Shown here: positions 11,980-26,220 of the stretch, piece by piece | Layout: each line of letters opens with the position of its first letter | Numbering within the stretch: position 1 is the stretch's first letter | NCBI GenBank assembly: GCA_024102815.1 | Contig: JAGFJJ010000005.1 | Coordinates: 1 to 64,000, forward strand | Direction: 5' to 3' | Source: Phycisphaerae bacterium | GTDB lineage: Bacteria > Planctomycetota > Phycisphaerae > UBA1845 | Length of the DNA: 64,000 nucleotides | Made by a program: the position numbers and the translations under genes | Notes under the pieces: model-generated | What the model saw: the letters and a program-made list of their open reading frames with translations, nothing else | Database searches by the model: none | What the model was told of the DNA's origin: nothing

Positions 11980-11995
11980 TCAAACAATCGTTTGA
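11980..11995. promoter_or_regulatory. operator 1 for the TetR-like repressor
   Basis: TCAAAC-aatc-GTTTGA has perfect six-base arms. Its right arm overlaps the -35 box of the efflux operon promoter, so occupancy would block RNA polymerase. The same arms recur 49 bases downstream (centre to centre), which strongly suggests one protein binds both. Confidence 0.75.
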
Positions 11996-12019
11996 CTTCA
12001 TCGGGGCGCGGGGTATACT
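11992..12019 (+). promoter_or_regulatory. promoter of the outer-membrane factor/YbhGFSR-like operon
   Basis: TTGACT (11992-11997) and TATACT (12014-12019) are separated by 16 bases, each matching the sigma-70 consensus at five of six positions. Predicted transcription start is near 12026. The -35 is inside operator 1 and the start site sits at the edge of operator 2. Confidence 0.75.
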
Positions 12020-12027
12020 CCCGACAA

Positions 12028-12045
12028 TTCAAACGGTTGTTTGAA
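12028..12045. promoter_or_regulatory. operator 2 for the TetR-like repressor
   Basis: TTCAAAC-ggtt-GTTTGAA has perfect seven-base arms and the same core as operator 1. It covers roughly +2 to +20 of the predicted transcript, a usual roadblock position. Confidence 0.75.
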
Positions 12046-12060
12046 ATGGGATCGGCGAAC

Positions 12061-13584
12061 ATGACATGCGCCCAGCCAACGCGGATCCGGACGGTACCAT
12101 CCTTGCCCTGGGTCTTCGTTCTGGCCGCGCTCGGCGGATGTGTCTCGCCGCGGCCCATGCACACCGAGTCTCTCGCGTCCCACGCCGAGGCCGGATGGCG
12201 AAACGAGATTCCCCACGATGAATCCTCCGCCGCGAAAGACGTGGCCGAGTGGTGGCGCACGTTCGACCCGACGCTGGCGGCGCTGGCCACGCGGGCCCTG
12301 GCCGCGAATCTCGACCTTGCCGTCGCTCGCGAACGCGTTGTCGAAGCGCAAGCCCGTCGCGGCATCGTCAGCGCCGACCGCAAGATTCAGATCGACGCCG
12401 AAGGCAGCTACCTGCACGCCGCGACTGGAGATCAGGCGTTGGCGTTCGCCGCCCCGCCGCCGGGCGTGGAGAAGAATCTGTACGCGGCAGGTGTCGTGGC
12501 CGGGTGGGAGCTCGATCTCTGGGGCAGGGTCGGCCGACTGGTCGACGCCGCCCGGGCGGATTCCGCCGCGGCGATCGAACGCTATCACGGCGTGGCCGTT
12601 TCGCTCGTCAGCGAATTGGCCCTGGCCTTCATCGACGTGCGCGCCCTGGATCGCCGCCTCTCGCTTGTGAAAGAGAACGTGGAGCTCCAACAGCGTACAC
12701 TCGACCTGGCCGAGGCGCGCCTTGCAGCGGGCAACGGACCGGAGCTCGACGTGATGCAGGCCCGCCGATTGTTGCGGCGAACGTCGGCCCGCGTGCCCGA
12801 GCTCCAGCGGGCCAAGGCGGTCGCCGAAAACCGAATCGCCGTTCTCCTGGGCACGCGCCCGGCGGACGGTCTCGTTCCGGACGGTGATCTGCCCAGCGAC
12901 GTCTGCCCGGTGGAAATGGGCTTGCCCGCGGAACTCATTGCCCGACGCCCGGACATTCGACAAGCCATGTACGCTTACGAGTCCGCGCTATTGCGGACCG
13001 AAGCCGCCGATCTTGAGCGGCTGCCGCAAGTTCGATTGAACGGAACCTTCAAGCTCTCGGCCGACAATCTCGGCGACTTCAAGGACAATGCCACGATCTA
13101 TTCGATCGGGCCGCAGATCTCTTTCCCTCTGCTTGATGGTGCGCGAATCAATGCCACCGTCTCCGTCCGGCAGTCTCAGGCGGACCAAGCCCGGCTCGTC
13201 TTGGAACAGGCACTCCTGCGGGCCATTGAAGAGGTGGAGAACGCGGCCGTGGGGTACATGCGGCGACGCGCCCAGGTCGGCGAGCTGGAAAAGGCCGTGG
13301 AGGCGGCACGCCGCAGCGAAGAGATGGCCGATCAATTGTACCGCGCCGGGTTGCGCAGTCTGGACCAGTCTGTTGACGCGCAGCGCCAGCTCGTCGAGGC
13401 GGAGGACGACCTGGTCGTCGCCCGGCAGCAGATGCTCGGGGAGACGGTGCGCCTGTATCGAGCCCTTGGTGGCGGATGGGAGCAGCTTGCCCTGGAAGGG
13501 GACAAGACCGTCGGTTCGAACGCCGCCGATGCGCCTGCCCCGCCGGAGAAATCGTCGCGCGAAAGAGAGGATGAGGGAGCGTGA
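12061..13584 (+). CDS. TolC-family outer-membrane efflux lipoprotein (NodT type)
   Basis: A 507-residue outer-membrane factor. The signal WVFVLAALGGC ends in a lipobox cysteine near residue 27, and two outer-membrane-efflux repeats follow (each with a long amphipathic coiled-coil, e.g. VELQQRTLDLAEARLAAG). The phrase LIARRPDIRQA is a marker of the NodT/OprM group. It should form the trimeric exit duct for the exporter encoded downstream. ATG 12061 is chosen; ATG 12046 in frame is possible but falls within operator 2. First gene of a five-gene operon. Confidence 0.92.
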   Translation: MTCAQPTRIRTVPSLPWVFVLAALGGCVSPRPMHTESLASHAEAGWRNEIPHDESSAAKDVAEWWRTFDPTLAALATRALAANLDLAVARERVVEAQARRGIVSADRKIQIDAEGSYLHAATGDQALAFAAPPPGVEKNLYAAGVVAGWELDLWGRVGRLVDAARADSAAAIERYHGVAVSLVSELALAFIDVRALDRRLSLVKENVELQQRTLDLAEARLAAGNGPELDVMQARRLLRRTSARVPELQRAKAVAENRIAVLLGTRPADGLVPDGDLPSDVCPVEMGLPAELIARRPDIRQAMYAYESALLRTEAADLERLPQVRLNGTFKLSADNLGDFKDNATIYSIGPQISFPLLDGARINATVSVRQSQADQARLVLEQALLRAIEEVENAAVGYMRRRAQVGELEKAVEAARRSEEMADQLYRAGLRSLDQSVDAQRQLVEAEDDLVVARQQMLGETVRLYRALGGGWEQLALEGDKTVGSNAADAPAPPEKSSREREDEGA

Positions 13585-14593
13585 AGCTGATCGGAATCAT
13601 CCTTCTGGTGGTCTTGGCCGCCGCGGGTGGCGCGGCCGGATACGCGCTGTGGCTCGAGTATCAGACGCCCGAAGTCGAAGGCGCCGTCACGCTGTACGGG
13701 AACGTCGAAATCCGGGAGGCGGATCTGGCATTCAACGGCGAAGAGCACATCGCCGAAGTGCTTGTCGAAGAGGGCGACCGGGTGGAAAAGGGGCAGATCC
13801 TTGCCCGGCTCCAGACCGATCGCCTCGAGGACGAGATCGCCCGGGCGAATTCGCAGATCGATGCGCAAAGCGAGGTTCTCAGGCGGCTGGAGAATGGTAC
13901 CCGGCCGCAGGAAATCGAGCAGGCGCGGGCTCGCGTTGCGTCGGGCGAGGCTCGTGTCGAAAACGCTCAGCGGGTGGTCGATCGACTGCGGGAATCGGCC
14001 CAGAGCGGGGCATCTAGCCAGCAGGACCTCGATGACGCCCTGGCTCGGTTGGCGGTCGAGCGATCGGAACTCAACGTCCGTAGGGAGGAACTCGACCTGG
14101 CGCTGGAGGGCCCGAGGAAGGAGGACATCGCTGAAGCACGTGCGCACCTCGCGGCCGCCAAGGCGGACCTGAGCCTTCTGCAAGATCGCCTCGACGACAC
14201 CACGCTGCGAGCGCCGGCCGTGGGTGTCATCCAGAGCCGCATCCTGGAGCCCGGGGAATTCGCAGCACCTTCGCGGCCGGTGTTTTCGCTGGCGCTCATC
14301 GACCCCAAGTGGGTGCGGGCGTACGTGCCCCAGCCCGACTTGGGCAAAATCCAACAGGGCATGAAGGCGCACGTCATGAGCGACTCATTCCCCGACCAGA
14401 TGTTTGAGGGCTGGGTCGGCTTCATCAGTCCGAAAGCGGAGTTCACGCCGAAATCGGTCCAGACGGAGGACCTTCGAACGCGGCTCGTCTACGAAGTCCG
14501 CGTGTACGTGAACGACACTGAGAATCGCCTCCGCCTCGGACAGCCCGTGACCGTCCACATCGAGCGCGATTCCTCCACCAAGGATGGTGGGTG

Positions 14594-14594
<1 letters not shown>
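13581..14594 (+). CDS. HlyD-family periplasmic adaptor, YbhG-like
   Basis: A 337-residue membrane-fusion protein with an N-terminal signal anchor (GIILLVVLAAAGGAAGYAL), a lipoyl half VEEGDRVEKGQILARL, a long coiled-coil hairpin (about residues 85-190) and the second half TTLRAPAVGVIQSRILEPGE. Length and layout match E. coli YbhG. It should link the two ABC-2 permeases to the outer-membrane factor. The GTG start overlaps the preceding stop by four bases and has GAGGGAG upstream, so the genes are translationally coupled. Confidence 0.92.
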
Positions 14595-16419
<1,825 letters not shown>

Positions 16420-16423
<4 letters not shown>

Positions 16424-17544
16424 CGTCGCCCTCGCTCATGCGTTTGCGGGGACTCCTGCGAAAGGAGATTCTCCAGATCATTCGCGATCCGTCGAGTATC
16501 ATTCTTGCGCTGGTCATGCCCCTCGTGCTGCTTTTCCTGTTCGGATACGGCGTGTCGCTGGATGCCGAACATGTGCCTCTCGCGGTCGTTCTGGAAGACA
16601 AGAGTGATGCGGCTCGTGCGGTCGGCGCGCGGTTTGCGCTTTCGCCATATTTCGATGTCTCCCATGCAACTTCGCTCCATGAGGGCGAGGAATTGATGCG
16701 GCGGGGGGAGGTCGATGGTGTATTGCACATCGCCAGCGATTTCTCTTCGCGACTTGCAAGCGGCCAAGCCCCCGTTCAGCTCCTGCTCAACGGCGTGGAC
16801 TCCAATCGGGCGCGCCTCGTGCAGGGATATGCACAGGGGGTTCTGGCCGATTGGGCGGCGCAGCGCGTGGCCCGCGGGGAACCCGTCGGTCGGCCCGGCG
16901 TTCAGGTCCGGCAGCGCGTGTGGTTCAATGAAGCGCTGCGCAGTACGAATTTCCTGGTTCCGGGGTTGCTCACCCTGATCATGACGCTCACCGGCGTGTT
17001 GCTTACCGCCCTGGTGATCGCCCGGGAATGGGAGCGCGGGACGATGGAGGCCATCCTCGCGACCCCGCTTCGCATCCGGGAGTTCCTCCTGGGCAAGATG
17101 ATTCCCTATTACTTGCTGGGCATGAGCGGGCTCGTTCTTTCGGTCGGGTTCGGCGTGCTGGTATTCGATGTTCCGTTTCGCGGATCGTACCTGGCGCTGT
17201 TTATTCTGGGTTCGTGCTTCCTGCTGGCCTCCCTGGGGTTGGGACTCTTCATCTCCGCGGCCGTGCGCAAGCAGTTCATCGCCGCGCAGGTGTCGATCAT
17301 CTCCGGTTTTCTGCCGGCATTCTTTCTTTCGGGATTGCTCTTCGATCTCGAAAGCACACCGGAGTTTGTCCAACTGATCAGCCATGTCGTCCCTGCGCGG
17401 CACTTCGTGGATATCAGTCACACGCTGTTTCTGGCCGGCAATGTTTTTGGTGTGCTCGTTCCCAGCGGACTGATTCTCGCAGGGATGGCGGCCTTGTTCA
17501 TTTTCCTGGCCCGGCGGCAGATGAGTCTGCGCATCGAATCTTAG
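16420..17544 (+). CDS. ABC-2 type permease, YbhS-like
   Basis: A 374-residue permease of the ABC-2 (YhgE/Pip/YbhR-S) build: one N-terminal helix (PLVLLFLFGYGVSL), an extracytoplasmic domain of about 150 residues, then five helices near the C-terminus. The phrase EWERGTMEAILATPLR after helix two is the usual cytoplasmic coupling loop. It pairs with the next gene, also 374 residues, as a heterodimer. ATG start overlaps the ATPase stop by four bases. Confidence 0.92.
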
Positions 17545-17556
17545 GGGGAGCCGAGC

Positions 17557-18681
17557 TTGTCCATCCTGCGGCGTATTCTCGCATTGACCATCAAAGAGTT
17601 CCTGGCGATCGCCAAGGATCCCAAGAGCCGTTTCGTGGTCATCGGCCCGCCGCTGATTCAGTTTTTTGTCTACGGATATGCGGCCACGTTCGACGTCACG
17701 GACGTTCGTTATGCGGCGTTCGATGAGGATCGCACATCGGCTTCGCGTGCCTTGTTGGCGCAATTCGACGGCTCCGGCCATTTCCGGCGCTCCCTGACGA
17801 TCGACCACGAGGAGGAGATCGCCGACGCCATTGACAACGAAGCGGCGCGTCTCGTCGTGCACGTGCCCCAGAGGTTTGCCGCCGACCTGGCCGCGGGGCG
17901 CACGGCCGAAGTGCAGGTCATCGTCGACGGGCGCAACTCCAACGTCGCCAGCATCGCGGGAAGTTACGTGAACTCGATCGTGAATGAGTTCAACGCGCGA
18001 TACGTTGGTGGTCCGGGCGTCAGCGAGTCGACGGCACCTTCCATCGTCCTGGTGGAGCGCGCCTGGTACAACCCGAATCTGCTGAGCCGCTGGTTCATCG
18101 TCGCGGCGCTGGGCGGCGTTATCTCTACGGTGGTGGTGATGGTGCTTTCCAGCCTGTCCGTCGCGCGGGAACGTGAGTTCGGGACGTTCGACCAACTGCT
18201 GGTTGCTCCGTTCTCCCCGGCCGAGATTCTCATCGGAAAATCCGTACCGGCGTTCGTGTTCGGACTGGGCAACGCATTGCTCTTGTCGGCGGCCGCCGTG
18301 TGGTGGTTTCAGATCCCGTTCGAAGGCAGCATTCTTGCACTCGTCCTGATATTGTCGACCTACATTCTCTCGATCGTGGGCCTGGGGCTCTTCGTGTCGT
18401 CGCTCTCCACGACGATGCAACAGGGACTTCTCGGTTCTTTCATCGCCATTTTTCCGATTGTCATCCTCTCGGGCTTCACAACGCCGATTGAAAACATGCC
18501 CGATTGGCTGCAATTCCTGACGCTGGCCAATCCGCTGCGTTATGTGACAGCCGGCCTGCGGCGGATTTTTCTGGAGTCGGCCGGCGTATCGCAGATGGGT
18601 CAGTACATCCTGCCACTGCTCCTGATCGCGGCGATCACGCTGACGGTGGCGGGATGGTTCTTCCGGCATCGAACGCAATGA
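17557..18681 (+). CDS. ABC-2 type permease, YbhR-like
   Basis: A 374-residue partner of the preceding permease with the same topology: helix FVVIGPPLIQFFVYGYA, a large periplasmic domain, then five helices including the EREFGTFDQLLVAPFSP loop. Start is TTG at 17557, six bases after GGGGGAG, with a 12-base gap from the previous stop. It completes an exporter of CecR-regulated YbhGFSR type, which in E. coli contributes to drug tolerance; the substrate here is unknown. Confidence 0.92.
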   Translation: MSILRRILALTIKEFLAIAKDPKSRFVVIGPPLIQFFVYGYAATFDVTDVRYAAFDEDRTSASRALLAQFDGSGHFRRSLTIDHEEEIADAIDNEAARLVVHVPQRFAADLAAGRTAEVQVIVDGRNSNVASIAGSYVNSIVNEFNARYVGGPGVSESTAPSIVLVERAWYNPNLLSRWFIVAALGGVISTVVVMVLSSLSVAREREFGTFDQLLVAPFSPAEILIGKSVPAFVFGLGNALLLSAAAVWWFQIPFEGSILALVLILSTYILSIVGLGLFVSSLSTTMQQGLLGSFIAIFPIVILSGFTTPIENMPDWLQFLTLANPLRYVTAGLRRIFLESAGVSQMGQYILPLLLIAAITLTVAGWFFRHRTQ

Positions 18682-18863: not shown

Positions 18864-19186
18864 GTACGTAAGTTGATGAAAAGTCCACCAGTTGAGTAAT
18901 CAGGTCGGTTCAGTTTTGCTGATATTCCTCGCGCCCTGAAGTGCCAGATTCCGTCCGGGCTGAAAGGATCGCGTCCTCCGGAGCCGTCGAGTTATTCGTT
19001 GATGTTCCATCAAGCCGTCATGACTCGACGTTGAATCCGGAGCACTCTATTTTTTTCTCGAACGGCTTATGGAAATGATGAATCTTGACGTGATCGGACA
19101 CTTGCGCCGATGATATGTTTCTCGAGCCGACCATTCCGCGTCAACCGAATTTAGGGCCGAAATCCAAATACAGAGAGGGGACTGTC

Positions 19187-21979
19187 ATGCTGCTGCGTTC
19201 CGAGGTTCGCACGAATCGGGCATCGGGCTTTCTTTCATGCGCGAGTTCAGCGCCTGTCTTCCTGCTTGCGTTGGCCCTGTTGGCGCACTTGCCGGGGGGT
19301 ATCGTTCGGGCTGAATCCGGGGAGGTGCGTGCGTCGTCGCGGGATTCCGGGGAACGCAAGGACCGAAGCGAGGGCCGGGCGCAATCGGACACCGGGAATA
19401 GGGAGGCCGGAAAGGTGCTTGCAGGAACGGTCCTTGTTACGCCTTGTGATGCACTCATTCCGGGAGATGACCCGAATTCTGTCAACGATCGCGCGTCCAA
19501 TGGCGGGATTGATAGCCGCCGAACCAAGTCACGTGTCGCCATGCCGGCCTATTACGTCTGTACGCGGCAGGCCTCGTACAATATCGAAGACAACAAGCTT
19601 GTCGTGCGCGGGCTTTACCAATCTCCGAGGCGGGCGCCGATCATTCGGTTGATCGACGACGCCACGAACATCGAACTCGCCTCGTTCACACCGGAAGGCC
19701 GGGGGGGCGCTTTCGAATTCGAAGTCGATGGAATACTCGGTCCCCCCTGCAATATCCGGGTCGAAATGAACCCCTACGCCTACCAGGCCGGCGTCCAGGG
19801 TGCTCCCGCGTCGTGCCAAGGCACAGGGGGAGGCAACCATCCGCCGGTCTGCGGGATTCTCCTTCCCGCCGGCGATGTCAGTATCCACCTGGGAGAGTCT
19901 GTCTACTTCTCCGGAACCGCCACCGACCCGGATGGGACGGCGGGCCTGACGTTCGAATGGGACTTTCACGGCGGAGCCGATGAGCGGCCTACTGTTCTCG
20001 TACCGGGCCCCGTCGTGTTTGACCTTGCCGACGGCAGCTTCCTTGCAACGTTCAAGGCTACCGACGTGAATGGTGCTACCTGCACGGACAGCGTGACGGT
20101 CAACGTGGGGTTGCCGCCTGACGGGCTTCCGCCGATGGTCGCGCAGCAGCCCGCGCCGGGCGAGCCGGGCTCCGGCAGTACATCGCACGTTGTGTTGCCC
20201 TTCAACGACCTGGGCATGCACTGCGGTGATCTTTCTTCCGTACCCTTCGCGGTTCTTCCTCCATTCAACACGTTGAACGCTCAGGTGGTGCGTCGAGGCC
20301 TTTCCTCGAATCAGCCGCCCGAGATTGAGGATGATACCTTCATTGACTTGCGATACTCGGCGGCGTCCAACCCGAACGATCCGGTAGGACCGGGGTCGAT
20401 CAATTCGACCAGTCAGAATTACCCCGTCGGTGCAAAGCTCCGCGATGCGACGGTACGCAAGACGGACTTCTGGGATGTTGACGAGACCACCGGCTCAACG
20501 ATTGCGTCTCTTTTGTTCCCGGGACTGGATCCGCTATCGGATGAAGGGCTGCAGACGATCGACAACCCCGACCACGGACGGTACATGCCCGGTATCGCGA
20601 ATCCCTACTACGCGAACGATCCGCAGTTGTTTGGAAAATACCTCGAAGAGAAGACCTGGTTTACCGCCCAGGGCATCCCGATGACGAGTGTCGATGATGG
20701 CGGTCGGCCGAACTCCTACCCCCTCATGCGCGTGCAAGCCATTGAGAGGTCGACGGGCGAGGTGTTGGCGACTACCGATGCGGTCGTTCCCGTTTCTTCG
20801 GAGGTCGATTGTCGCGACTGCCATGCGTTCGGCCTGGTCGGCGCCGATCCGACGGCCCGGGCCTCGGGTCCTGCGTTCGTTCCGCCGGCCACGCAGGATC
20901 GCCTCGACCTGGAGACTTCGGCCAAGGCCAACATCATCCTTCTGCATGACTATAAGCACGGTACGTCACTGGCGAGCAATTCGGACCCGATCCTATGTGC
21001 TGCGTGCCATCGGTCCAATGCGCTGGCGGTTGTGGGTGGTCCAGGGGGAGATCCGGCACGCGACAGCATGTCCCGCGTGACGCACGGGTTGCATGGAAGA
21101 CTGCAACTCGACGGGCAGGGATCGCTATTGCGCGACGCCGCGGGAGAGCCGATTCTGATCAATCCGAACAATATCTCTCCGGATCAGGTGCCCTTGATTC
21201 CCGTCGGCCTGGATGATCCGATGGAGTCCAACTGTTTCCTCTGCCATCCCGGGAAGATCACGCAATGCTTCCGAGGCGCCATGTACACGGCCGGACAGAC
21301 GTGTGTCTCTTGTCACGGTGGTATGCTGGCTGTCGCCGGGGAGTACCCGCTTTCGAGCGGGCAGGCGCGTACGCCGTGGGCTGACGAGCCGCGCTGCGGA
21401 TCGTGCCATCATGGCATGGGTGAGATGGCCGTGTATACGGAGGCATACGCTGCAGGTGACCCAGCGGCAGAACCAATGCCGCCCCTGACATCCCGGTTCG
21501 CGGAAAACGTCGGCACCCTCTACCGCGACAGCCTCGACAGTCATGCGGGCGTAGCGTGCGAGGCGTGCCACGGCAGTCCGCACGCGATCTGGCCGCACCG
21601 CGACGAGAACGCCAACGACAACGTGGCCGCGATTCAGCTCCAGGGGTATGTCGGTCCCATTCGCGAATGCACGGTCTGCCATGAACCGGGTAGTTTCCCG
21701 AACGGCACGTTGTCTGGCCCACACGGAATGCACCCGGTGAACGATCCGAACTGGATCAAGGGCGAAGGACAATGGCACGGGGAGTACGCCAAGAATCATA
21801 ACGGCGGTGATCGATGTGCCGCGTGTCACGGCGCGGACCACCGGGGCACACGGTTGTCGCGCGTGCCGGTTAACCGTGTGCTACGAGATGCTGAAGGGCG
21901 CATTCGTACAACGCTGAACGCGGGTGACATCGTTTCGTGCGATCTCTGCCACAGCCTCGGAACCAGCTTTGAGGATTGA
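19187..21979 (+). CDS. secreted nine-heme cytochrome c with a PKD domain
   Basis: A 930-residue exported protein. After a signal peptide (VFLLALALLAHLPGGIVRA) come a region of unknown fold, a PKD-type beta-sandwich (near residues 210-310, with HLGESVYFSGTATDPDG), and a C-terminal two-thirds containing nine CxxCH heme motifs: CRDCH, CAACH, CFLCH, CVSCH, CGSCH, CEACH, CTVCH, CAACH and CDLCH. It is predicted to carry electrons outside the inner membrane, perhaps at the cell surface. ATG 19187 has GAGAGGGG upstream; the longer open frame lacks a site. It stands alone, with no maturation genes nearby. Confidence 0.85.
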   Translation: MLLRSEVRTNRASGFLSCASSAPVFLLALALLAHLPGGIVRAESGEVRASSRDSGERKDRSEGRAQSDTGNREAGKVLAGTVLVTPCDALIPGDDPNSVNDRASNGGIDSRRTKSRVAMPAYYVCTRQASYNIEDNKLVVRGLYQSPRRAPIIRLIDDATNIELASFTPEGRGGAFEFEVDGILGPPCNIRVEMNPYAYQAGVQGAPASCQGTGGGNHPPVCGILLPAGDVSIHLGESVYFSGTATDPDGTAGLTFEWDFHGGADERPTVLVPGPVVFDLADGSFLATFKATDVNGATCTDSVTVNVGLPPDGLPPMVAQQPAPGEPGSGSTSHVVLPFNDLGMHCGDLSSVPFAVLPPFNTLNAQVVRRGLSSNQPPEIEDDTFIDLRYSAASNPNDPVGPGSINSTSQNYPVGAKLRDATVRKTDFWDVDETTGSTIASLLFPGLDPLSDEGLQTIDNPDHGRYMPGIANPYYANDPQLFGKYLEEKTWFTAQGIPMTSVDDGGRPNSYPLMRVQAIERSTGEVLATTDAVVPVSSEVDCRDCHAFGLVGADPTARASGPAFVPPATQDRLDLETSAKANIILLHDYKHGTSLASNSDPILCAACHRSNALAVVGGPGGDPARDSMSRVTHGLHGRLQLDGQGSLLRDAAGEPILINPNNISPDQVPLIPVGLDDPMESNCFLCHPGKITQCFRGAMYTAGQTCVSCHGGMLAVAGEYPLSSGQARTPWADEPRCGSCHHGMGEMAVYTEAYAAGDPAAEPMPPLTSRFAENVGTLYRDSLDSHAGVACEACHGSPHAIWPHRDENANDNVAAIQLQGYVGPIRECTVCHEPGSFPNGTLSGPHGMHPVNDPNWIKGEGQWHGEYAKNHNGGDRCAACHGADHRGTRLSRVPVNRVLRDAEGRIRTTLNAGDIVSCDLCHSLGTSFED

Positions 21980-22657: not shown

Positions 22658-23977
22658 TTGGTACGACAGAAGACGATCGGGCGCACGGTGGAGCTGGAAG
22701 GGCGGGGGTTGTTTACCGGCGCCCCGGTGATGCTTCGCTTTCGCCCGGGCGCGCCCCATTCCGGGATCTGGTTCGTCCGCACGGACCAGTCGCCGCCGAT
22801 TCGAATCTCTGCCACCGTGGACAACGTGACCAAGCGCGCCCGGCGAACGTCGCTGCGCAATGGGACGGTGTCCATCGAGACGGTTGAACATTGCCTGAGC
22901 GCGTGCGCCGGGCTGGGGATCGACAATCTCGAAATCGAGCTTAATGCCGACGAGCTGCCGGCCGGTGACGGAAGCGGGCTTCCGTTCCTGGAAGGTCTGG
23001 ACGATGCGGGGATCGAGGAACAGGACGCCCTCCGGGAGCCCTACATCATTTCAGAGGTTGTGCGCGTCGTGGACGGCGATGCGGAACTGGTGGCCCTGCC
23101 GCCGCTGGTGGGAGACAGCGAGGTCCTGGAGGTCTGGTACGACCTCGACTACGGACAGGGCGGTCCGATCGGCCGGCAGGTCTATGGTATCTCTGTCACG
23201 CCGGAGAATTTTCGAACGCAATTGGCGGCGGCGCGAACTTTCGTGCTGGAGGAGGAGGCACAGCAACTTCGCGCGGCCGGTCTGGGGACGCACCTTTCGG
23301 CCAAGGACATCCTGGTCTTCGGGCCGACCGGTCCCATCGACAACGCGCTGCGTTTCCCCGACGAATGCGTGCGGCACAAGCTGCTCGACCTGGTGGGGGA
23401 CCTGATGCTGCTGGGGCGGCCGCTGGTGGGTCGGGTGCATGCTCGAAAGAGCGGCCACGCGCTAAATCATGCGCTGGTGCGGGCGCTTTTGGAGAAGGAG
23501 CAGGAGCGGAACGAGCGGTCGCTGCTCCAGAGCGAATCCGCGGTGAACATCCACCGCATTCAGCGCATTCTGCCGCATCGATACCCATTCCTCATGGTCG
23601 ATCGAATCGTGGAGATCGACGGCACGCGTCGTGCGGTGGGGATCAAGAACGTCTCGGTGAACGAGCCCTTTTTCCAGGGGCACTATCCGGGCGACCCGAT
23701 CATGCCCGGCGTGCTGATCATCGAGGCGCTGGCGCAGGTGGCGGGCGTGCTGCTCAGCCAGGCGCTGGAGCACAAAGGGCGGGTGGCGGTGTTGCTCGCG
23801 TTGGACAAGGTGAAATTCCGCCGGCCGGTTCGCCCGGGTGACCAGTTGTTGTTAGAGGTGGAGTCGGTCCGGGTCCGTTCGTCGACGGGGCATGTTCGCG
23901 GCCGGGCCCGGGTGGGCAGTGAGTTGGCCGCGGAAGCGGAGATCAAGTTCGTTCTGACGGACGCGGAGTCGCCGTGA
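22658..23977 (+). CDS. lpxC-fabZ: bifunctional LpxC deacetylase / FabZ dehydratase
   Basis: A 439-residue fusion. Residues 1-275 are LpxC, the zinc deacetylase committing UDP-acyl-GlcNAc to lipid A: TVEHCLSACAGLGIDNLEI with a zinc histidine, GDGSGLPF, HKLLDLVGDLMLLG with the other zinc ligands, and the active-site SGHALNHALVRALL. Residues 295-439 are FabZ, which dehydrates 3-hydroxyacyl-ACP: ILPHRYPFLMVDRI and FFQGHYPGDPIMPGVLIIEA with the catalytic His and Glu. Such fusions are known in Bacteroidota and Planctomycetota. Start is TTG at 22658; GAGGTGA lies rather far upstream. lpxA follows after 31 bases. Confidence 0.95.
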   Translation: MVRQKTIGRTVELEGRGLFTGAPVMLRFRPGAPHSGIWFVRTDQSPPIRISATVDNVTKRARRTSLRNGTVSIETVEHCLSACAGLGIDNLEIELNADELPAGDGSGLPFLEGLDDAGIEEQDALREPYIISEVVRVVDGDAELVALPPLVGDSEVLEVWYDLDYGQGGPIGRQVYGISVTPENFRTQLAAARTFVLEEEAQQLRAAGLGTHLSAKDILVFGPTGPIDNALRFPDECVRHKLLDLVGDLMLLGRPLVGRVHARKSGHALNHALVRALLEKEQERNERSLLQSESAVNIHRIQRILPHRYPFLMVDRIVEIDGTRRAVGIKNVSVNEPFFQGHYPGDPIMPGVLIIEALAQVAGVLLSQALEHKGRVAVLLALDKVKFRRPVRPGDQLLLEVESVRVRSSTGHVRGRARVGSELAAEAEIKFVLTDAESP

Positions 23978-24008: not shown

Positions 24009-25103
24009 GTGAGTATTCATCCGACAGCCATTGTTGAGCGCGGGGCCGAGATCGGGCGGGACGTGTCCATTGGTGCCTTCGCGTACATCGGCCCCAACGT
24101 CCGTCTCGGCGACGGATGCCGCATTCATCATCACGCCACGATCGACGGTCTTACGACAATGGGTGAGGGGTGCGAGGTATTTCCGCAAGCGGCGATCGGA
24201 CTCACTCCGCAGGATCTGAAGTATAGCGGCGAAAAGACGTCGCTGGAAATCGGAAAGCGGAACATCTTCCGCGAGATGGTCACGGTCCATCCCGGTACGG
24301 GCAACGGCGGCGGGGTTACGCGGATCGGCAACAGCAACTTTTTCCTCATCGGCGTGCACGTGGCCCACGACTGCCTCATCGGCAACAACTGCGTGATCGC
24401 CAATTACGTGCAATTCGCCGGGCACGTTCACGTGGAGGACAACGTGAACATGGGCGGGCACAGCGCCGTCCACCACTTCGTCACCATCGGCAAGCACGCT
24501 TTCGTGGGCGGGATGACCCGCGTTGCGGCCGACGTGCCGCCGTTCATGGTCGTCGTCGCCGCGCGAGGGACTCGGACGGAAGTGCGCATGGTCAACGGCG
24601 TGGGCTTGCAGCGCAGCGGATATTCGCAGGAGGACATTGCGGCACTGAAGGACGCCTTCATGGCAATTTACGCGCGAAAGGCGCGGCTCAGCGGCGTGCC
24701 CATTAGCGACCGCGTGCAGGCGATCCTCGACGTGCCGGATCAGAATCCGCACGTGGTCTATCTGTGCAAGGCGCTGATGCGTTCCTTCGCCCATGGGCGG
24801 CACGGGCGCTATCTGGAATCGCTTCGGCAGGACCCGGTGCATCGTCGTAGTTGGCGACTGGCCGAGGGATCGTCGGCGGGGAATCGACTCGCGATCGAGG
24901 TCGTCGGTCAAGGCGTTGTGGATCGCGTGCGAACCGACGGCGAGAACGGCGGGCACGAGACGCTGCGGCTCACCGCGCAGGCCGAACCCGGCTGGGCATT
25001 TGCCGGGTGGGATGGCAATCTCTCCGGCCGGTTGAACCCCGCGATGATCGTGCTCGACGACCACAAGAAGGTGACGGCGACGTTCACGAGAGTTTCGGTA
25101 TAG
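24009..25103 (+). CDS. lpxA: LpxA acyltransferase with an InlB-repeat-like C-terminal extension
   Basis: A 364-residue protein. Residues 1-265 are LpxA, the left-handed beta-helix enzyme that moves a 3-hydroxyacyl chain from ACP to UDP-GlcNAc: IHPTAIVERGAEIG hexapeptides, the catalytic histidine segment GVHVAHDCLIGNNC and GLQRSGYSQEDIAALK. Usual length is about 260. The last 75 or so residues (from about 290) read like a divergent InlB B-repeat domain: GQGVVDRV, LTAQAEPGWAFAGWDGNLSG, KVTATF. Those domains are normally extracellular, so the fusion is odd; the frame is uninterrupted. Start GTG 24009. Confidence 0.93.
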   Translation: MSIHPTAIVERGAEIGRDVSIGAFAYIGPNVRLGDGCRIHHHATIDGLTTMGEGCEVFPQAAIGLTPQDLKYSGEKTSLEIGKRNIFREMVTVHPGTGNGGGVTRIGNSNFFLIGVHVAHDCLIGNNCVIANYVQFAGHVHVEDNVNMGGHSAVHHFVTIGKHAFVGGMTRVAADVPPFMVVVAARGTRTEVRMVNGVGLQRSGYSQEDIAALKDAFMAIYARKARLSGVPISDRVQAILDVPDQNPHVVYLCKALMRSFAHGRHGRYLESLRQDPVHRRSWRLAEGSSAGNRLAIEVVGQGVVDRVRTDGENGGHETLRLTAQAEPGWAFAGWDGNLSGRLNPAMIVLDDHKKVTATFTRVSV

Positions 25104-25203: not shown

Positions 25204-26220
25204 ATGACCAAACCTCTTCGTGTTGCCGTTGTCGGATGCGGACACATGGGCCGCCACCACGCCCGAGTCTATTCGCAGATGAAGGACTGCGAGCTCGTCG
25301 CCGTTGTCGACAAGGACCTCGACCGCGCCCGCAAGATCGCCTCCGAACACGGCGGCAAACCCTACGCCCGCGCGGCCGACGTGCCCGAGGAACTCGACGC
25401 CGTCACCGTTGCCGTGCCTACCGTCTTCCACGCCGAGATCGCCATTCCCCTGATGGAACGGGGCGCGGCCGTGCTCGTGGAGAAGCCGCTTGCACCCGAC
25501 ACACGCAGCGCCGCTCAGTTGCTCGCGGCGACGCGCCGCACGGGGCGATTGCTCCAGGTCGGGCACTCCGAACGTTTCAATCCCGTGGTGCAGGCCATGC
25601 TGCGGATGGGCGTAACGCCGCGGTTCATCGAGACGCAGCGGGTCAGCCCGTTCACCTTCCGCAGCGCCGACGTGGGCGTCGTGTTCGACATGATGATCCA
25701 TGACATCGACATCGTGCTGCACCTCGTGCAGCGGCGGGAGTACACCATCGACGCGGTGGGCGTGAGCGTGCTGGGCGCGGCCGAGGACGTGGCCAACGCC
25801 CGCGTCCGCTTCGGCGACCACGCCGCGGTGAACCTGACCGCCTCGCGCCTGGCGCTGAAGACTGAGCGGCGCATTCGCATCTTCGCCCCGACGGGCTACC
25901 TCTCGATGGACTATCACAAGAAGAGCGGCATCGCCATCAAGCTCGACGACAACCTCGACCTCATCCGCATGGCCCGCGAGCGGAACTTCGACGACCTCTC
26001 GCAGATGGCCTCGCTGGACTTCGGCTCAATGGTGAAGATCGAGCCGCTGGTGGTGGACGACGTGGAGCCGCTGCGGGCGGAATTGGATTCGTTCGTCGGC
26101 GCGGTTCGCACCGGCGGCAACGCGGCCGTCTCCGCCGAGGACGGCTACGCTGCGGTGGAGATGGCTGAACGCATCACGGCGGAGGTGAGGAAGAATGATT
26201 GGGGGGGCGTCGCAAAATAG
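25204..26220 (+). CDS. Gfo/Idh/MocA family oxidoreductase, possibly GnnA-like
   Basis: A 338-residue NAD(P)-dependent dehydrogenase. The N-terminal Rossmann fold opens with VAVVGCGHMGRHHARVYSQM; the EKPLAPD motif with its active-site lysine is at about residue 95, and a C-terminal alpha/beta substrate domain includes the FDMMIHDIDIVL histidine segment. Placement 100 bases after lpxA suggests UDP-GlcNAc 3-dehydrogenase (GnnA), which with aminotransferase GnnB makes the 3-amino sugar used for amide-linked lipid A. No GnnB is in the window, so the specific role is inference. Start ATG 25204. Confidence 0.85.
   Translation: MTKPLRVAVVGCGHMGRHHARVYSQMKDCELVAVVDKDLDRARKIASEHGGKPYARAADVPEELDAVTVAVPTVFHAEIAIPLMERGAAVLVEKPLAPDTRSAAQLLAATRRTGRLLQVGHSERFNPVVQAMLRMGVTPRFIETQRVSPFTFRSADVGVVFDMMIHDIDIVLHLVQRREYTIDAVGVSVLGAAEDVANARVRFGDHAAVNLTASRLALKTERRIRIFAPTGYLSMDYHKKSGIAIKLDDNLDLIRMARERNFDDLSQMASLDFGSMVKIEPLVVDDVEPLRAELDSFVGAVRTGGNAAVSAEDGYAAVEMAERITAEVRKNDWGGVAK

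Follow-up and report, generated by a model that had tools for sequence, protein, structure and literature searches.

An LpxA acyltransferase with an in-frame, C-terminal InlB B-repeat-like domain in a family of Phycisphaerae

Introduction

Lipid A synthesis begins with the enzyme LpxA. Domains of the PF18998/InlB B-repeat type are usually treated as extracellular modules, and in the genome studied here a single copy is attached to this well-understood cytoplasmic enzyme. The gene lies in a 64,000-nucleotide stretch of a Phycisphaerae bacterium assembly (GCA_024102815.1, contig JAGFJJ010000005.1, positions 1 to 64,000), which is called the window below. The locus raises the question of whether the extra domain is a genuine part of LpxA, how it was acquired, and what it might do there. 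A literature search, at the level of search results, found no account of an LpxA-PF18998 fusion.

Domain organization of the fused LpxA

A preliminary description of the locus had proposed an LpxA with an in-frame, InlB-repeat-like tail at its C-terminus, and profile searches bore this out, with the LpxA profiles and PF18998 all scoring above their cut-offs. The frame comprises 364 codons, encoding 364 amino acids without an internal stop, and is organized as follows.

24009-25103, + strand: complete frame of LpxA plus tail (GTG start at 24009, TAG stop at 25101-25103)
24009-24833, + strand: core of the LpxA acyltransferase (residues 1-275), with the left-handed beta helix and C-terminal helices
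24834-24887, + strand: linker, residues 276-293 (18 residues), motif P-V-H-R-x-[S/T]-W-[K/R]
24888-25088, + strand: divergent InlB B-repeat-like domain (PF18998, above the Pfam gathering score), residues ~294-360
25008-25016, + strand: W334-D335-G336, an instance of the W-[N/D]-G motif that marks LpxA tails

The core was recognized by the NCBIfam profiles NF003657 (E 1.8e-93, 312.5 bits against a cut-off of 226) and TIGR01852 LpxA (E 8.8e-89, 297.1 bits against a cut-off of 231.05). Residues D69, H94, H117, H120, H139, and H155 align to D74, H99, H122, H125, H144, and H160 of E. coli LpxA, which we take to be its catalytic and substrate residues, and were invariant in 46 of 46 family LpxA proteins (19 fused and 27 tail-less; L160, L034, L070, and five outgroups were set aside). 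By sequence, the LpxA core is complete, with its catalytic residues intact.

The tail was found C-terminally, as first described, but its boundaries had to be corrected: the LpxA part common to tail-less relatives stops near residue 275-287, and a linker (276-293) precedes the domain proper (~294-360). R279 and W282 of the linker were invariant in all 19 fused LpxA proteins found in the family, a few of which carry a four-residue insert (289-292). PF18998 (Divergent InlB B-repeat; gathering score 23.6 bits) matched the whole protein with E 2.4e-5 and 24.7 bits, and the tail alone with E 1.3e-6 to 1.9e-6 and 28.2-28.7 bits, whereas the Listeria-Bacteroides (List_Bact) repeat TIGR02543 remained below its cut-off (12.7 versus 20.95 bits). 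The concern that profile searches might reveal no InlB similarity thus proved unfounded; moreover, each of the 19 fused proteins matched PF18998 by itself (E ≤ 0.01), which argues against a chance match.

Distribution and gene neighbourhood

Among the 51 genomes of the window genome's family, LpxA and the tail share one frame in 19 (the window's included), belonging to 15 genera. G047 is a twentieth carrier, in which the domain is readable behind an assembly gap, with a run of N at the LpxA part. LpxA is tail-less in 27 of the remaining genomes and cut by a contig end in G024, and no orthologue was found at this level in G021, G045, and G049. In the single-contig genome G047, the run of N (L160, 2902-3001) marks a gap left by scaffolding, and the frame beyond it is unrelated.

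Beyond the family, we found no further fusion. A search of 100 genomes (the window's own included) gave matches spanning residue 2 to about 361 in the same family only. Of 114 genomes searched within the order, 63 belong to other families; among the matches listed for these, in a listing headed by the fused proteins, none joined the LpxA end to the tail. Across the phylum, 391 other genomes, with at most 11 first-look candidates scored per genome, gave no match that ran from the LpxA end into the tail, and other PF18998-type matches lay mostly within long open frames. The tail was present in none of 80 named LpxA loci among the matches listed, where the best named planctomycete relatives of LpxA were L037 (49%), from a Phycisphaerae MAG, and L042 (41%), from an uncultured planctomycete. 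No relatives of LpxA or of the tail turned up on viral contigs, and a motif scan gave 120 stretches that matched the tail profile only weakly.

Two flanking genes define the locus.

22658-23977, + strand: LpxC-FabZ fusion gene, directly upstream of lpxA (PF03331 and PF07977; NF009667 below its cut-off)
25204-26220, + strand: Gfo/Idh/MocA oxidoreductase gene, downstream of lpxA (PF01408), a synteny marker

LpxC-FabZ upstream and Gfo/Idh downstream accompany lpxA in most fused and tail-less relatives with a long enough flank. It had been anticipated that relatives all ending at about 265 residues would point to a frameshift or an assembly join; instead, 19 of the 51 family genomes continue in frame, in independent assemblies with conserved flanking genes. 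The GC content of tail and core is also close, with GC3 values of 0.805 and 0.801, respectively. A frameshift or assembly artefact joining two genes, in favour of which we found nothing beyond the demonstration by G047 that assembly gaps do occur at this locus, is therefore a negligible possibility. With no shift in GC or GC3, there was likewise no sign of a recent foreign insert. L011 and L014 (genomes G002 and G032) have the tail, yet lpxC/fabZ was not found in their upstream flanks, the part of these genomes in which it was sought, which weakens the case for LpxC-FabZ as an obligate partner.

A second, tail-less LpxA paralogue lies outside the lpx locus of the window genome (G000:C78:119791-120543; L322 4247-5071) and scored 293 bits with TIGR01852, over the cut-off; a comparable second match is present in most family genomes. 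Given this distribution, tailed and tail-less copies may divide the work between them. The paralogue adjoins a frame that, by eye, resembles uracil-DNA-glycosylase.

Elsewhere in the window, positions 19115-21979 hold a 954-residue frame in which the CxxCH haem-binding motif occurs nine times and a stretch near the start is hydrophobic. Its product is likely to be an exported protein of the multihaem cytochrome c type. Positions 11992-18681 hold frames that by eye look like an outer-membrane efflux protein, a membrane-fusion protein, a double ATPase, and two ABC-2 permeases, resembling an ABC exporter operon (putative, with names assigned by eye).

Phylogenetic analysis of gain and loss

A tree of the LpxA core was calculated from 51 rows with the tail columns excluded and without three rows: L160 (readable in its tail alone), L034 (truncated at a contig end), and L070. 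The 19 fused proteins and the tail-less proteins of G012 and G006 formed one clade (support 99/93), and its sister group was tail-less. G012 and G006 keep the linker motif R-x-[S/T]-W, including R279 and W282, so the linker is independent of the domain, and no domain remnant was found downstream of lpxA in either genome.

The core tree alone was compatible with a clade of fused proteins only (p-AU 0.28) and left gain versus loss open. A three-gene tree (LpxC-FabZ, LpxA, and Gfo/Idh; 36 rows, with 10 tail-less family rows left out) placed G012 within the fused clade, next to G032 (support 97/87), and rejected a fused-only clade (p-AU 0.003). Because G012 is nested in this way, the simplest history would be that the domain was gained once and then lost at least once, in G012. 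This loss is well supported, and G006, which lies in the core-tree clade without the domain, represents a second absence among the 21 clade members. At the 3' end of lpxA in G012 (L026), a near-palindromic repeat (CCCTCTCCCT...AGGGAGAGGG) occupies the short stretch that replaces the lost tail, and its position suggests that the loss was a repeat-element-associated deletion.

For comparison with the domain outside LpxA, we used 68 stretches, picked by score, whose match to the tail profile covered 55 positions or more, taking at most three per locus for tree calculation (47 repeats) and one per locus for residue comparison (29 repeats). In the domain tree, for which only 71 columns were available, the 19 tails fell on one side of a branch and the 47 other PF18998-like repeats on the other (support 100/97). 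This arrangement speaks against repeated capture and makes one capture likely; a single origin of the tail domain is the most likely reading of the tree.

Comparison with other PF18998 repeats

Several features set the tails consistently apart from the other repeats. All 19 tails have N or D after W334, as does only 1 of 29 other repeats; the others mostly read W-[S/E/Q]-G. A loop Tyr pattern seen in 24 of 29 other repeats occurred in none of the 19 tails. The tails were also less acidic, with a mean net charge of -1.3 versus -5.5 for the 68 repeats. The usual setting of PF18998, which is not part of the Pfam definition, is a large, mostly secreted protein, often with tandem copies; the tail departs from it as a single copy after LpxA. 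These tail-specific differences would fit adaptation to a new setting.

One could suppose that export or membrane association takes the fused LpxA out of the cytoplasm and that its domain plays the part it has in surface proteins. In the window genome, PF18998 is otherwise confined to two large proteins, the two in which secretion was inspected, and one of them has a typical signal-peptide-like start, which would accord with export. Against this, similarity to LpxA starts at residue 2-3 of the window protein, the substrates of LpxA, acyl-ACP and UDP-GlcNAc, are cytoplasmic, and the tails are less acidic than the other repeats. Because the LpxA fold begins at residue 3 and leaves no room for a signal peptide, we infer a cytoplasmic location for the fused LpxA and regard export as highly improbable.

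Selection and conservation of the tail

Synonymous and nonsynonymous differences in the tail departed strongly from neutrality in three pairs of one genus (p 5e-10, 3e-10, and 2e-15) and in the pair G047-G031 (p 4e-8, over a stretch that also takes in the linker and the end of the core). For L017-L018, likewise a pair of closest relatives, omega was 0.12 in the tail and 0.04 in the core. These substitution patterns indicate that the tail is under purifying selection. Over 171 pairs, pN/pS was 0.52 for the tail and 0.24 for the core, which means that the tail is under weaker constraint than the enzyme. Identity averaged 48% for the tail and 73% for the core. Core and tail identities were correlated across all rows (Mantel r 0.46, p 0.0002), and the correlation was weak and not significant without two near-duplicates (r 0.13, p 0.18).

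The faster evolution of the tail leaves no highly conserved binding partner evident, and it is also what would be expected if the tail were an entrenched passenger, that is, an accidental in-frame join that is neutral to the enzyme and selected only against misfolding. The well-supported loss and the second absence within the clade point the same way, and the second LpxA paralogue could buffer defects. A purely neutral tail should show frequent early stops, however, and the tail has been kept in 19 of 21 clade members and 15 genera under strong purifying selection; we therefore consider a passenger quite unlikely.

Residues G300, G302, V304, L321, A323, G328, F331, W334, G336, P344, A357, and F359 were conserved in 19 of 19 tails, while the loop at 305-317 was highly variable. 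This pattern, in which the conserved positions are mainly core-type and turn residues (e.g., G300, W334, and P344), would suit a structural cap that merely stabilizes the trimer or shields the C-terminus from proteolysis without a specific partner, as would the dispensability of the domain in G012. The consistency of the change to W-[N/D]-G suggests a role beyond generic stability, and the tail-less sister LpxA proteins persist without a cap, so that a purely structural role appears unlikely.

We are highly confident that the domain was captured and has been selectively maintained. The preliminary description had suggested capture for a new purpose: one origin, purifying selection, and consistent divergence uphold the capture, and the new purpose is plausible only.

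Structure prediction and possible role of the domain

In a full-length model built with an alignment of 26 tail-less LpxA proteins, pLDDT was mostly above 90 in the core and mostly below 50 in the tail. Modelled alone without an alignment, the tail was all-beta with five strands (mean pLDDT 62.8). Foldseek returned no match at E ≤ 0.001 for the tail-alone model, and a search of solved structures with the tail profile returned none at E ≤ 1. The InlB B-repeat fold is beta-grasp-like; a second structural aligner (VIA), run on the low-confidence tail model, listed the InlB B-repeat 2y5p at rank 24 with a weak similarity (Z 2.9 over 54 residues), which would be compatible with such a fold.

The history outlined above would begin in one ancestor within the family, where lpxA at the lpxC/fabZ - lpxA - Gfo/Idh locus gained an in-frame 3' segment encoding a single PF18998 domain. 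The source would have been a module that in this order occurs mainly within large proteins, often repeated. The fused protein would stay in the cytoplasm as an active LpxA trimer, displaying three small beta domains on flexible linkers beside its C-terminal helices. In E. coli LpxA, the region of these helices is where the enzyme meets acyl-ACP, and the domain may thus act as a docking or tuning module near the ACP-docking end. It would be useful yet dispensable: at least G012 has lost it, and G006, which lacks it as well, also does without it.

As an overall explanation, a captured and selected domain that serves as a docking module on a cytoplasmic LpxA trimer has, in our judgement, an even chance of being correct; the docking role taken by itself is tentative and falls slightly short of that. 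A more specific proposal, that a surface-protein module was recruited once and that three arms per trimer now bind a partner and control the entry of acyl-ACP into the outer-membrane pathway, is speculative and somewhat unlikely. If the domain does act on LpxA, it may be a point at which this lineage, in a group with a poorly studied outer membrane, specifically controls entry into lipid A synthesis. The fused LpxA also offers a defined test bed for what the PF18998 fold binds, and the tail-less G012 and G006, together with the tail-less sister clade, provide natural built-in controls.

Comparison with known systems

The fused LpxA is a new domain architecture built of known parts. With E. coli LpxA (1lxa; TIGR01852), the window protein shares the whole enzyme, the catalytic residues, and the operon context; compared with solved LpxA, it is longer by about 89 residues at the C-terminus, which include a second domain. 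Among solved structures, the matched LpxA chains are 189-305 residues long, and none aligned past residue 259 of the fused protein. With PF18998 (Flg_new_2/InlB B-repeat), the tail shares the core pattern G-W-x-F-x-G-W-x-G...NP...V-x-A-x-F, but it occurs just once, at the end of an enzyme that is presumably cytoplasmic, and it has W-[N/D]-G and no loop Tyr. LpxC-FabZ (NF009667) is likewise a fusion at the same locus and in the same pathway, and its architecture is known; whereas LpxC-FabZ joins two pathway enzymes, the fused LpxA joins an enzyme to a non-enzymatic domain.
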